Positions 14,712 to 43,414 of a stretch of 64,000 nucleotides of DNA are shown in pieces. Positions within the stretch are counted from its first letter, which is position 1. Every line of letters begins with the position of its first letter. Source of the DNA: Pseudoflavonifractor sp. Marseille-P3106 (GTDB lineage Bacteria > Bacillota > Clostridia > Oscillospirales > Oscillospiraceae); the NCBI GenBank assembly GCA_900169975.1, contig LT827122.1, positions 124,001 to 188,000 of the forward strand, given 5' to 3'. The notes under the pieces were generated by a model. That model was given only the letters and a program-made list of their open reading frames with translations. It had not been told where the DNA came from and searched no databases. A program made the translations under genes and the position numbers.

Positions 14712-14746
14712 AAAAGATTGAAAACGATCGAACAGGAGGTGTGCGC

Positions 14747-15640
14747 GTGTCTGATCCCACATTTTTGCCCGGAGGAATTCTGTCCATGGCCGCCGGGGCC
14801 GTCGACCGGCTTCTCTCCGCCGGGAGCGGAGACGCCGCCCTTCTCTACCTCTGGCTGCTCAAAACCGGCGGGGAATACGACGCCGCGGGCGCCGCCCGGG
14901 CCCTCAAATGGGACCCGGTCCGGGCCGATGGGGCCATGCAGCTGCTGGCCGGGATGAAGCTGGCCGATCCGAAGCGGAGCAAGGCTCCCCCGGCCCCCGC
15001 CCCGGCAGAGCCTCCGGAATACACTGCCGCAGATCTCAACCGGGAGCTGGAAAATCCCGCCTCTCCCTTCCCGGCCCTGGTCTCCGAAGTGCAGCGGCGG
15101 CTGGGAAAAGTGCTCTCCACCGCTGATCTGAAGAGCCTCTACACCGTCTACGACTTCGCCGGGCTCCCCGCAGAGGTCATCTTGCTGGCGGTGAGCTGGT
15201 GCGCGGAGGAGACCGGGCGGAAATACGGTACCGGTCAGAAGCCCCGCCTCCCCCAGATCCAGAAGGAATGCTTCCGCTGGAAGGAGCTGGGGGTGGACAC
15301 GGTGGAGGGTGCGGAGGCCCATCTCAAGCGCCTGGCGTCCCTTCGCACCCGGACGGGGCGGATCCTGGCCCTCATGGACATCCGGGACAGGCCCCCGGTG
15401 GCCCGGGAGCGGGAATACATTACAGCCTGGGTGGACATGGGCTTTTCCGACGAGGCCATTCGTCTGGCCTACGAGAGGACCGTGCTGAAAAAGCAGACCC
15501 TCAACTGGCCCTACATGAATTCGATCTTGAAAAGCTGGCATCAGAAGGGCCTGCACACCCCCGAGCAGATCACCGCCGGGGACTCGCAGCGCCCCCAGCG
15601 CCCCGCCGGGGCCACCGCACCCCCGTCTCTGAAGCCTCAC
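14747..15640 (+). CDS. dnaD: DnaD domain protein, 3' end lost to an assembly artefact
   Basis: Primosome/replication-restart protein. Residues 1-95 form the N-terminal winged-helix DDBH1-like part; two tandem DnaD_2-type helical domains follow, with LGKVLSTADLKSLYTVYDFA and YITAWVDMGFSDEAIRLAYE-TVLKKQTLNWPYMNSILKSWHQ, the second ending in the YxNxI signature of DNA-binding DnaD proteins. GTG at 14747 has AGGAGG seven nt upstream; the GTG at 14741 is too close to it. The frame stays open far into the next gene because the natural stop is missing: around 15640 the sequence turns into adapter-like DNA. The end given here is where family-like sequence stops. The DnaI-type loader gene follows, the normal arrangement. 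Confidence 0.85.
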
Positions 15641-15664
15641 TTCCATATAATATCTTTTTTTTTA

Positions 15665-15734
15665 AATGATCGGCCACCCACAAAGCTCCCCCCCTACGCC
15701 TTCTTCGGCGGCGTCAGATGTGTAAAAGAGACGG
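15665..15734 (+). other. Illumina Nextera P5-i5-Read1 adapter embedded in the assembly
   Basis: Positions 15702-15734 match the 33-nt Nextera Read-1 primer at 29 of 33 bases, including GCGTCAGATGTGTA then AAGAGAC. The 8 bases before it (15694-15701, CTACGCCT) match index S508 (CTAAGCCT) at 7 of 8. The 29 bases before that (15665-15693) begin AATGAT and then CGGC-ACC as in the P5 oligo, with one deletion, one insertion and several A-to-C changes. Total length is exactly 29+8+33 = 70. Just outside the P5 end lies a T9 run (15655-15663), i.e. poly-A in read direction, the known result of reading off the end of a template. The adapter sequences are recalled from memory. Confidence 0.93.
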
Positions 15735-15782
15735 GAGCGGATGCGGGCATTTCTCAGACAGCAGAGCAAGGAGGGGAATTAA

Positions 15783-16787
15783 ATGGCATACGATCCCGCC
15801 GTTCTCCGCCGGGCCTCCGGGCGTCTGGAGGACGCCCGGAAGAGCCGTCAGGAGGCGCTGGAGCGCCGCCGGAAACAGCTTTTTGCCCGTCTGCCCGAGC
15901 TGGCCGACATCGACCGGCAGCTCCGCGGCACCATTCTGGACATCATCCGCTCCTCCCTTCGCTCGGGCGTCGACCCAGGCCCCGCCCTCCGGGTGGTCAA
16001 AGACCGGAACATGGTCCTTCAGGACCGGCAGGCCGAGCTGCTCCGCTCCGCCGGGTATCCCCCCGACGCCCTTGCCGACACGCCCGCCTGCAAGGCCTGC
16101 GGGGACACGGGCTGGGTGGGGACCCGCATGTGCTCCTGCCTCAGGGCCCTGTGCGCCGAAGAGCAGGTGAAGGAGTTGTCCAAGCTGCTGGATCTGGGGG
16201 AGCAGTCCTTCGACTCCTTCTCTCTGGACTGGTATTCCCCCCTCCCCTGGACGGGGGAAACGATCCCGCCCCGGGAAAACATGGAGTTCATCTGTGAGCT
16301 CTGCCTCAACTACGCCCAGAAGTTTGGAAAATTTTACTTTAAAAATCTCTTTCTCTCGGGAAACCCGGGGCTGGGCAAGACCTTCCTCTCTGCCTGCATC
16401 GCCCGCACGGTGGCCGAGAAGGGCTTTTCCGTGGTCTACGACACGGCGGTGAATGTATTTGCCCGGTTTGAGGAACAAAAGTTTTCCAAAAGCGTCGAAG
16501 AGGGGAGAGAGGCCCAGGGGGAGACCCGGCGGTATCTGGGCTGCGACCTGCTGATCCTGGACGATCTGGGCAGCGAGATGACCACTCCCTTTGTCCAGTC
16601 GGCCCTCTACACCCTGGTGAACACCCGCCTCACCCGGGGGCTTTCCACCGTCATCTCCTCCAATCTGTCCATGGACGGGGTCCGCTCCCGGTATGCCGGA
16701 CAGACCGCCTCCCGGCTGGAAGGGGAATACCGGGTCCTCCGGTTTTACGGGGAGGATATCCGGCTCCTGCGGAAGAAAAAGCTGTGA
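15783..16787 (+). CDS. dnaC: DnaI/DnaC-type replicative helicase loader ATPase
   Basis: 334 aa AAA+ ATPase. A helical N-terminal region with a zinc-binding cluster (CKACGDTGWVGTRMCSC, about 100-120) is followed by the ATPase core: Walker A GNPGLGKTFLS, Walker B LLILDDLGSE, sensor I SSNLSMDG and an arginine-finger-like R in VRSRYAGQTASRLEG. It loads the replicative helicase DnaB at restart or initiation, working with DnaD upstream. AAGGAGG nine nt before the ATG supports the start. The gene lies 48 nt after the adapter artefact and looks intact. A symbol of dnaI would be equally fitting. Confidence 0.92.
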   Translation: MAYDPAVLRRASGRLEDARKSRQEALERRRKQLFARLPELADIDRQLRGTILDIIRSSLRSGVDPGPALRVVKDRNMVLQDRQAELLRSAGYPPDALADTPACKACGDTGWVGTRMCSCLRALCAEEQVKELSKLLDLGEQSFDSFSLDWYSPLPWTGETIPPRENMEFICELCLNYAQKFGKFYFKNLFLSGNPGLGKTFLSACIARTVAEKGFSVVYDTAVNVFARFEEQKFSKSVEEGREAQGETRRYLGCDLLILDDLGSEMTTPFVQSALYTLVNTRLTRGLSTVISSNLSMDGVRSRYAGQTASRLEGEYRVLRFYGEDIRLLRKKKL

Positions 16788-40149: not shown

Positions 40150-41736
40150 TCAGTCGGGCAGGCCGATGACGCCGGCGGTAAATAAGGCGTCGTCAAAAAT
40201 AGGGGCCACGGCGGGGTCGGCCTTCATCTCGCCGTAGAGCTGGCCCCGGGGCGTGGCCCAAATATCCGCGGCACTCAGGCCGGCCCATTTGCAGTACCCG
40301 GCCAGGTAGGCGCCCTGGGCCTCATCCCAGGAGCCATAGGTCTCACAGACCTTTTGCGCGGCGGGCTCCACCAGGGCCAACGCCTCGGGATAGGTCACAT
40401 AGCCCGCCAGGTAGCCCCACTGGGCCAGACTGGACACGCGGAACCAGTCCCAAGCATCCGATCCCGTGGCCAGAGCCGCCGTCGTGGTCATCAGGGCTTC
40501 CCGGTCCTGGATCCCCCAACCACCCCATAGTAAGTCCCGGCTAATTGTTTGGGCAGGAATGCGGGCCATGCTGCGTCCATCGTCCACTGGGGCAAGATAA
40601 CGATGACTTCGGATCATCGTGCCAAACAGAGTGGGGTCATCTCTGTTCACCTTGGTCAAAATCGCCCCCATGGGAAGCGCCCATGCTTCCAAATTGGAAG
40701 GCTGAACCACCGTCTTATTCTCGGTGACGAGCACACGGTGATGGGGGCCATCCCACTCCACCATTTGACCAAAAAATTCCGCAATATACCGAACAGGGAC
40801 AAACGTTGTTCCAGCTTCAGCAAAAGGCGCAACATCCATTTGGAAAGAGACGCCGTTTCGAGTAGCTTCGGTTTGACTCAGGGTCATGACGATTTCATCC
40901 CCACCCCTCATAAGGTGGACTTGATTGGTTTCCTGGACCCATTTCACCTCTGCGCCAAGCGCCTCAGAAATTGCTCGGATGGGGACCAGCGTCCGACCGT
41001 TTTGGGCCCGCCCCGGCAGATGAGACGGTCTTCCGAATTCATCTCTGCCCGGGATGATCTCTTCACCATCCAAATAAACATAGATCTTCGCCCGCTCCGC
41101 CGAAAGTGCTTGGGACAGTCGTTCATATTCCGCAGGGTCAACAGGCTGCAATGCACCATAGGCCAAAAATTGATTCAAGGAGTTCAAGCCGTTTATCCGC
41201 ATCGTCTCTTCGATCACATCTGCAAAAGAACTTAAATCTTTGTTCGGTTGCAGGTAAAAATTAATTTGGTACATTGACCGGACGTGCCACAGGGACAATT
41301 TTGCGGCGTTTGGGCCACCTGCCTTTTTGTCATCTTTTACCGATGAACTGAACGGCTCATATGTAGCCCAACGGTCTGGATAGCCGGCATTTTTATGCCA
41401 CATAAGCTCGAGGAGCGCCAATTCAAACTCCGCAGCCTGGTCATGGCCTTTATAGCCTTGAAGGCTTCCGCTTCCGAGGGCGCTTAATTGGGTAAGCATC
41501 GTCCACAGCGGATCCCCCTTCTGGGGCTTTTTCCCTCCAGCTTCAGCATCTGCCCGGAGTTGGGTCACATAGTTCCAGAATTTCGATTCGTAGGCATAGC
41601 TGCCCGGGAACACAATATACTCCTCCTCGCGCACCCAGCTGGGCGGCGTGGGGGTGACGCTCTCCGCCGCAAAGGCGGGAACGCAAAGGGAAAAGACCAG
41701 AGTCAGCACCAAAAACAAACTTGTCCGCTTTTTCAT
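40150..41736 (-). CDS. Secreted stalk-domain protein with C-terminal DUF1266, copy 1
   Basis: 528 aa. Signal peptide 1-24 (MKKRTSLFLVLTLVFSLCVP), an N-terminal helical region, a copper-amine-oxidase-N-like stalk domain (about 230-350: IIPGRDEFGRPSHLPGRAQN, then TLVPIRAISEALGAEVKWVQ and TFVPVRYIAEFFGQMVEWDG) and a DUF1266 helical domain at the C-terminus. Function unknown; the stalk domain is a surface module. The 3' 243 bp are 99 percent identical to copy 2 next door, whereas the middle of the gene (about 40540-41480) is clearly lower in GC than all neighbours. ATG at 41736 has AAGGA eight nt upstream. Confidence 0.8.
   Translation of the reverse strand: MKKRTSLFLVLTLVFSLCVPAFAAESVTPTPPSWVREEEYIVFPGSYAYESKFWNYVTQLRADAEAGGKKPQKGDPLWTMLTQLSALGSGSLQGYKGHDQAAEFELALLELMWHKNAGYPDRWATYEPFSSSVKDDKKAGGPNAAKLSLWHVRSMYQINFYLQPNKDLSSFADVIEETMRINGLNSLNQFLAYGALQPVDPAEYERLSQALSAERAKIYVYLDGEEIIPGRDEFGRPSHLPGRAQNGRTLVPIRAISEALGAEVKWVQETNQVHLMRGGDEIVMTLSQTEATRNGVSFQMDVAPFAEAGTTFVPVRYIAEFFGQMVEWDGPHHRVLVTENKTVVQPSNLEAWALPMGAILTKVNRDDPTLFGTMIRSHRYLAPVDDGRSMARIPAQTISRDLLWGGWGIQDREALMTTTAALATGSDAWDWFRVSSLAQWGYLAGYVTYPEALALVEPAAQKVCETYGSWDEAQGAYLAGYCKWAGLSAADIWATPRGQLYGEMKADPAVAPIFDDALFTAGVIGLPD
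40186..40428 (-). repeat. 243-bp near-identical repeat, copy A
   Basis: Matches 41827-42069 at 241 of 243 bases. It encodes most of the DUF1266 domain of the first tandem paralogue. Confidence 0.95.
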
Positions 41737-41781
41737 TCTGACCATCCTTTCGTCCGTGTGGTTAGAAGGCCCGGGGCAGTC

Positions 41782-43340
41782 TTACTCGGCCATCTCCGGC
41801 AGCCCCATCACGCTGGTCTGGAAGAGGGCGTCGTCAAAAATAGGGGCCACAGCGGGGTCGGCCTTCATCTCGCCGTAGAGCTGGCCCCGGGGCGTGGCCC
41901 AAATATCCGCGGCACTCAGGCCGGCCCATTTGCAGTACCCGGCCAGGTAGGCGCCCTGGGCCTCATCCCAGGAGCCGTAGGTCTCACAGACCTTTTGCGC
42001 GGCGGGCTCCACCAGGGCCAACGCCTCGGGATAGGTCACATAGCCCGCCAGGTAGCCCCACTGGGCCAGGTGGCTCGCCCGGAACCAGTCCCAGGCATCC
42101 GCGCCCACGGCCAGGGTCTCCGCCGTGGTGATCAGGGCCTCCCGGTCCTCGATGCCCCAGCCCTCCCGCAGGATCTTGCGGCCGAAGTCCGGGCCGGTGG
42201 TCTCGTGGCGGTTGGTGACCTCGCCCCCCACGGGGCCGGCGCCAAAGCGGGCCTTGCCGCCGAAGAGGGTCACTTCATGGGGGTTGCTCTCGTAGTTGAG
42301 GACGGCCCCCATGGCCAGGGCCCAGGCTTCCAGGTTGGAATCGCCCGCCGCCGACTTGTCCTCGGTGATGACCACGTGCTGCTGGGCCCCGTTCCACTCC
42401 ACCTTCTGGCCAAAGAACTCGGCGATATAGCGGATGGGGATGTAGGTGCGGTTGTTCTCGGCGTAGGGGGCCACGTCCATCTGGAAATGCTCCCCGTTGC
42501 GGAGGGCTTCGGTGCTGTCCAGGGTCATGACAAAGGTATCCCCCGCCCGCCGGATGGTGATCCGCCGGGCGGCGGCGTCATAGTCCACCGTGGCCCCCAT
42601 CAGCTCGGCCAGGCGGCGCACGGGCACCATGGTGCGCTGATTGCGCACCTGGGGAACGGTGGTGTCCAGGTAGTCTGCGCTCACCCGCACCGCCTTGGGG
42701 TGGACGACCTCCCCGTCCAGGGTAACAAAAAGGAGCGCTTTGGCGGCCGCCAGGTTCCCGGCAGACACGCCGTTGGCCGCGCCCCAATCCAGCACCTGGG
42801 CCATGGTGAACCGGGGATCAGGGAGCAGATACTCCACCGCCCCCACAAAACGGCCCAGGCCCCGGCCCTCCAGGCCGTCGGTCAGGTCCTGGTCCCAGAG
42901 CCCGGCCCGGGCGTTCCAGAGGTAGGCCAGAGCGCGGGGGGACGCCTGGCCGGACGCGCCATAGGCGGCACTTTCAAAGTCGGCCCCGATTTTCGCCGTT
43001 TGCCCTTTGGCGGCGCGTTGAGGGCATATTTCACCTTCAAAAGGCCTACCTCGAAGTCCACACTGGCCCCGCCCATCCGTTTCAGCTCCCGCAGGCGGTT
43101 GAAGAGCACCGTGTCCGTGCCGGACTGGGGCTCCGGATTCCCCGCCCCGGCGTGCTCCCGGAGGGAGAGAATTTTGTCCCAGGTTGCCGTCTCATAGGCC
43201 GCGCCGTCCGCGAAGACGGCGTACTCCTCCGCCGGACACCAAGAGGGCGGCGCGGGAACCACCGGTTCCACAGCCCGGGCGGGCGGGCAGAAGGTCAGAG
43301 CCAATGCCAGGACCAAGGGGAATAAAATGGTCTTTCTCAC
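41782..43340 (-). pseudogene. Secreted stalk-domain/DUF1266 protein, copy 2, frameshifted
   Basis: Two frames together give a protein of about 520 aa colinear with copy 1. The first (GTG 43340, GAGGAGG upstream) has a signal peptide and AVEPVVPAPPSWCPAEEYAV, and stays family-like to VKYALN near 43010; it then runs out of frame to a stop at 42882. The second frame continues from about 43020 with AKGQTAKIGADFESAAYGAS and carries the stalk domain (TMVPVRRLAELMGATVDYDA, TYIPIRYIAEFFGQKVEWNG) and DUF1266 to the stop at 41782. One single-base indel near 43000-43020 explains everything. It could be a real mutation or a sequencing error. Confidence 0.8.
41827..42069 (-). repeat. 243-bp near-identical repeat, copy B
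   Basis: Second copy of the repeat at 40186-40428; only two substitutions differ. Sequence outside these limits drops to roughly 80 percent and then lower. Confidence 0.95.
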
Positions 43341-43414
43341 AAGGCTGTCCTCCTCGTACTCAAGCAAAATTTAGAAAACCGGAAAACTGACATGCGGAGC
43401 GCGTCAGGAAACGG

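Follow-up and report, generated by a model that had tools for sequence, protein, structure and literature searches.

Adapter contamination of published genomes has a described precedent in Moeller et al. (2024; PMC11536531). There, contamination was scored at p<0.01 in 1110 of 15,657 MGnify reference genomes and was concentrated at contig ends; the search looked for perfect matches to 12-base words from the TruSeq universal adapter. The cases given there, isolates as well as MAGs, resemble the locus described here in that an Illumina adapter was built into a published assembly. They differ from it in type and position: the adapters reported there are exact TruSeq words, concentrated at contig ends, whereas the present one is a degraded Nextera adapter that lies 139 kb inside a contig of 246.8 kb. 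The window (the whole 64,000-nt stretch of DNA that was analysed) corresponds to C16:124001-188000 of its own genome assembly, which comprises 3,118,585 bases in 20 contigs and is rated 99.15% complete.

The adapter lies inside dnaD. In window coordinates, the features of the locus are as follows:

14741 to 15622, + strand: 5' part of dnaD, native up to the break, matching the relative G010 up to 15623
15623 to 15654, no strand: non-native junk beginning with CCGTCTCT; homology to the relatives G010 and G001 stops at 15623
15655 to 15663, no strand: run of nine T, interpreted as poly-A where a read entering from the right ran off its template
15665 to 15693, + strand: degraded P5, placed by joint alignment with the rest of the adapter and not above chance by itself
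15694 to 15701, + strand: i5 index (CTACGCCT), S508 at 7/8
15702 to 15734, + strand: Nextera Read-1 with the transposon mosaic end, 29/33 ungapped (whole adapter, E 2.0e-10 in its own genome)
15735 to 15782, + strand: native tail of dnaD with ERMRAFLRQQSKEGN and the stop codon, in a different frame from the 5' part
15783 to 16787, + strand: dnaC-like gene of 334 aa, an apparently intact ORF (Pfam IstB_IS21, E 2.3e-11; Bac_DnaA, E 5.4e-06)

The presence of the adapter in dnaD is confirmed. We read the stretch as an assembly artefact produced by read-through into a degraded Nextera i5 adapter, with a probability of about 0.97.

Positions 15665-15734 read, in order, as P5, the i5 index, and Read-1 with its mosaic end; the Read-1 and S508 matches given in a preliminary description of this DNA were both reproduced. 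At the site, Read-1 gave a local score of 25, compared with 12 for the runner-up in the window (both strands scanned); when the window was shuffled 61 times by mononucleotide and scanned on one strand, the score never exceeded 15. By arithmetic, about 6e-9 matches of at least 29/33 are expected by chance per 64 kb (both strands, uniform bases), which agrees with the earlier statement that a chance match is practically impossible. P5 was matched only weakly. By itself P5 scored 11 at the site and up to 14 by chance at other places in the window; because it falls below those chance matches, the P5 part rests on its position and on the joint alignment, in which it was placed at 15665-15693 with one gap on each side and the full adapter (index masked) scored 27 versus 14 at the next-best place. 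To the left, CCGTCTCT at 15623-15630 matches the CTGTCTCT start of an opposing adapter at 7/8, and it may, as a suggestion only, be a remnant of such an adapter. The preliminary description had put a possible opposing remnant at about 15640-15664, downstream of these eight bases. Alignment of 15616-15668 to adapter parts in different orientations, eight in all, gave no score above 7, and with so few bases the left remnant cannot be called an adapter. A second adapter was not detectable in the window: the next-best tiles scored at most 16 (Read-2, at this same site) and at most 14 elsewhere.

The consequences for gene prediction are direct. Translation of 14747-15634 carries Pfam DnaB_2 (PF07261; E 5.2e-29). 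The stop codon of dnaD, which the preliminary description had held to be destroyed, survives as TAA at 15780-15782, out of frame: the start of the gene is in frame 2 and the stop in frame 0. A 518-aa ORF at 14741-16297 spans the dnaD start, the adapter, and part of dnaC; since the dnaD start and stop are in different frames, this ORF crosses dnaC in the wrong frame, and it is spurious. The dnaC-like protein matches its G010 counterpart at 83% over the full 334 aa. The earlier claim that this is not a natural fusion is upheld: in this genome dnaD should be taken neither for a pseudogene or a long variant nor for a fusion of DnaD with DnaC.

The dnaD 3' end was compared with related genomes, a check that the preliminary description had proposed. 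A homology search with the site as query covered 60 genomes (its own included), 39 of which matched. In 15 of 15 same-genus genomes the left piece ended at or before query position 878 (window 15623); the right piece started at query position 989 (window 15734) in nine of them and further right in the other six. None of the 15 gave an alignment crossing the site. Across 16 of 16 loci (the 15 same-genus genomes plus one from another genus of the family), the flanking matches lie closer together than they do in the window, by 43-64 nt. The single-contig relative G010 has 47 nt between the flanks where the window has 111, so that native linker is missing too, with junk in its place. The 70-nt length first given for the adapter therefore describes the span 15665-15734 correctly but not a clean insertion: judged from G010, about 111 nt stand in place of a native linker of about 47 nt. 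A readable DnaD tail was present at 13 of the 16 loci, and all 13 keep GAT-x-PQP and a continuous intact tail; in the window, GATAPP is followed by the artefact, after which come ERMRAFLRQQSKEGN and the stop. The dnaD linker is of low complexity and varies among relatives, as one would expect if the stretch were a real, rapidly evolving linker that happens to resemble an adapter. Against this are the conserved motif and intact tail at all readable loci, the broken frame in the window, and the minute number of chance Read-1 matches expected, and together they leave such a coincidence practically negligible.

Further copies were found in the same assembly. The whole i5 adapter gave five matches at E <=10, three of them strong and two at E 1.23, and the i7 adapter gave one strong match and two weak ones (E 0.096 and 2.2). 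The strong copies outside the window are as follows:

C19:163270-163326: i5-side copy, E 3.3e-14, S508 at 7/8
C18:84358-84400: i5-side copy, E 4.8e-12, S508 at 8/8
C13:111228-111291: i7-side copy, E 5.8e-14, N706 at 7/8

S508 is thus found at three i5 sites and N706 at the strong i7 site, as a single library with one index pair would explain. A search with the 17-base mosaic-end core (<=3 mismatches) gave 14 matches in the genome versus six for the reversed control. Four of the 14 are the strong sites, four scored above all 1187 null tiles, and six fell within the null. The four weaker sites (C16:20945, C17:22450, C18:82884, and C19:201605) scored 20.5 to 22.8 versus a null maximum of 20.0, the tile null being smaller than the genome and the mosaic-end sites having been picked genome-wide; we regard them as probable adapter copies only. 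The assembly thus holds four strong and four probable adapter cases. At C16:20945 (L012), two opposing degraded i7-like adapters face each other, one of them followed by 12 consecutive A that lie between the pair; the index reads as N706 with extra bases. The two-sided arrangement is better seen there than at the dnaD site. The mosaic-end-like stretch at C18 ~82,884 (L002, 1-120; score 22.8) lies where a lipoprotein-like reading frame begins, and the strong C18 site is 1.5 kb away.

Relatives were also compared at the strong sites outside the window. At the C19 site the two G010 pieces abut (3-nt overlap) where the assembly has 163 extra nt, and the pieces lie at most 26 nt apart in 14 of 15 same-genus genomes, G005 giving a weak match only. 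The C13 site measures 12 nt in G010 versus 71 in the assembly, and the C18 site 50 nt versus 117 (13 of 15 genomes matching). Gene predictions at C13:111228, C18:84358, and C19:163270, and probably at the four weaker sites, need the same caution as dnaD.

The recurrence of one index also bears on a natural origin. The Nextera mosaic end is derived from Tn5 ends, and a natural insertion with a Tn5/IS50-like end could accordingly resemble it. The match, however, continues past the mosaic end through the synthetic Read-1 tail and the index, which are not known to belong to any transposon; no transposase or repeat is seen in 15623-15734 (112 nt); and the other copies carry the same index. We consider a natural insertion exceedingly improbable.

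The errors within the adapter copies are not random. Mismatches were counted at the four strong sites, starting at the insert side and taking in 41 to 42 bases per site. Of 17 mismatches, counting those at the last position at C19 and C13, which could be indels instead, 14 equal the preceding base in the read direction (expected 5.67; 0 of 20,000 random-substitution simulations reached as high), six equal the next base, and 16 match at least one of these two neighbours (expected 8.67). Phasing, the lagging of strands in late Illumina cycles, yields bases copied from the preceding position, and the mismatches look like phasing errors in reads running from insert to adapter. This pattern favours read-through over a rival in which the sequenced molecule itself contained the adapter, adapter or library concatemers having been ligated or having jumped into an insert, and reads carried it internally at good quality. 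One index pair at many sites would be expected from that process as well. It should have left near-clean letters, but 4 of 33 letters are wrong in the window copy, mismatches at four sites repeat the base before them in the read direction, and a poly-A/T run-off follows the adapter both in the window and at C16:20945. An adapter within the molecule is thus very unlikely. The low-quality, untrimmed adapter postulated in the preliminary description is borne out by the same index at several sites, the phasing-type errors, and the absence of the sequence from 15 of 15 same-genus genomes. The same index together with bases copied from the preceding position provides a simple test for this kind of artefact that can be applied without reads.

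Under the preferred reading, adapter read-through built into the assembly, the order of events would be as follows: originally, a short tagmented fragment would have had its end at 15735, within the native tail of dnaD. From the dnaC side, a read would have passed along the fragment and on into the Read-1 tail, index S508, and P5, before leaving the template (poly-A, seen as the nine T on the + strand) and continuing into noise. Finally, the assembler or a gap filler would have used the untrimmed tail to bridge a poorly covered, GC-rich dnaD linker, and about 47 nt of native sequence would have been lost in the bridging.

The preliminary description had also warned that nearby frameshifts should be distrusted, and this was only weakly borne out, with one other frame-broken gene noticed in the comparable part of the window. 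The frame check against G010 proteins was by eye, with several two-frame rows taken as shadow frames of stronger ORFs; it covers mainly the first 49 kb, the G010 stretches compared having no match to about 49.1-53.6 kb and 54.3-64 kb of the window. The gene (41782-43367, - strand) is frame-split in the G010 comparison at about 42.9-43.0 kb (42.94-43.01), and its downstream part carries Cu_amine_oxidN1 and DUF1266. It matches a single 546-aa G010 ORF in two frames, at 43343-42939 and 43014-41794. A paralogue with the same two domains adjoins it at 40150-41745. An adapter was not detectable at the split, which may be a sequencing error or may mark a true pseudogene.

Adapter sequence of this kind is not confined to one assembly. 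The canonical or window-variant 28-mer occurred in at least 119 stretches in 84,980 species genomes, a set that may leave out the window's own genome. Among the matches listed, 80 stretches held 87 matches, all canonical, and 83 of these were within 60 nt of a stretch end. These other Nextera adapters share the Read-1 sequence of the window copy; among the matches listed they are canonical and mostly at stretch ends, whereas the window copy is internal and mutated. Within the phylum, the 24-base core (<=3 mismatches) was found in seven of 398 genomes, the window's own included; its reversed control gave no match among the matches listed for the same 398 genomes. In an unrelated member of the phylum (G376), an adapter at a contig end has an index that looks different but shares both changes within the 24-mer, along with the T run plus AAATGA. 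At L168, in an unrelated genome, a degraded adapter close to a contig end has a similar T run and AAATGA next to it. Such runs, at L168 and at C16:20945, are comparable to the T run at 15655-15663 and accord with its first description as run-off poly-A outside the adapter. A further phylum member (G276; L176 and L182) has Nextera adapters adjoining N runs inside scaffolds. A literature search on phasing combined with adapter read-through found no publication.

We tentatively propose that internal adapter joins degraded by phasing could form an overlooked class of assembly error, though we hold this to be somewhat doubtful as a generalization. Rather than breaking contigs, such joins would bridge gaps in GC-rich linkers; they would escape exact-match screens of contig ends and would break genes in good-looking genomes. 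For the window copy itself, an exact search with the 12-mer of PMC11536531 would miss it. That adapters contaminate genome databases has been published before (PMC11536531), and the dnaD case is an artefact of this ordinary kind in an unusual form, internal and degraded.
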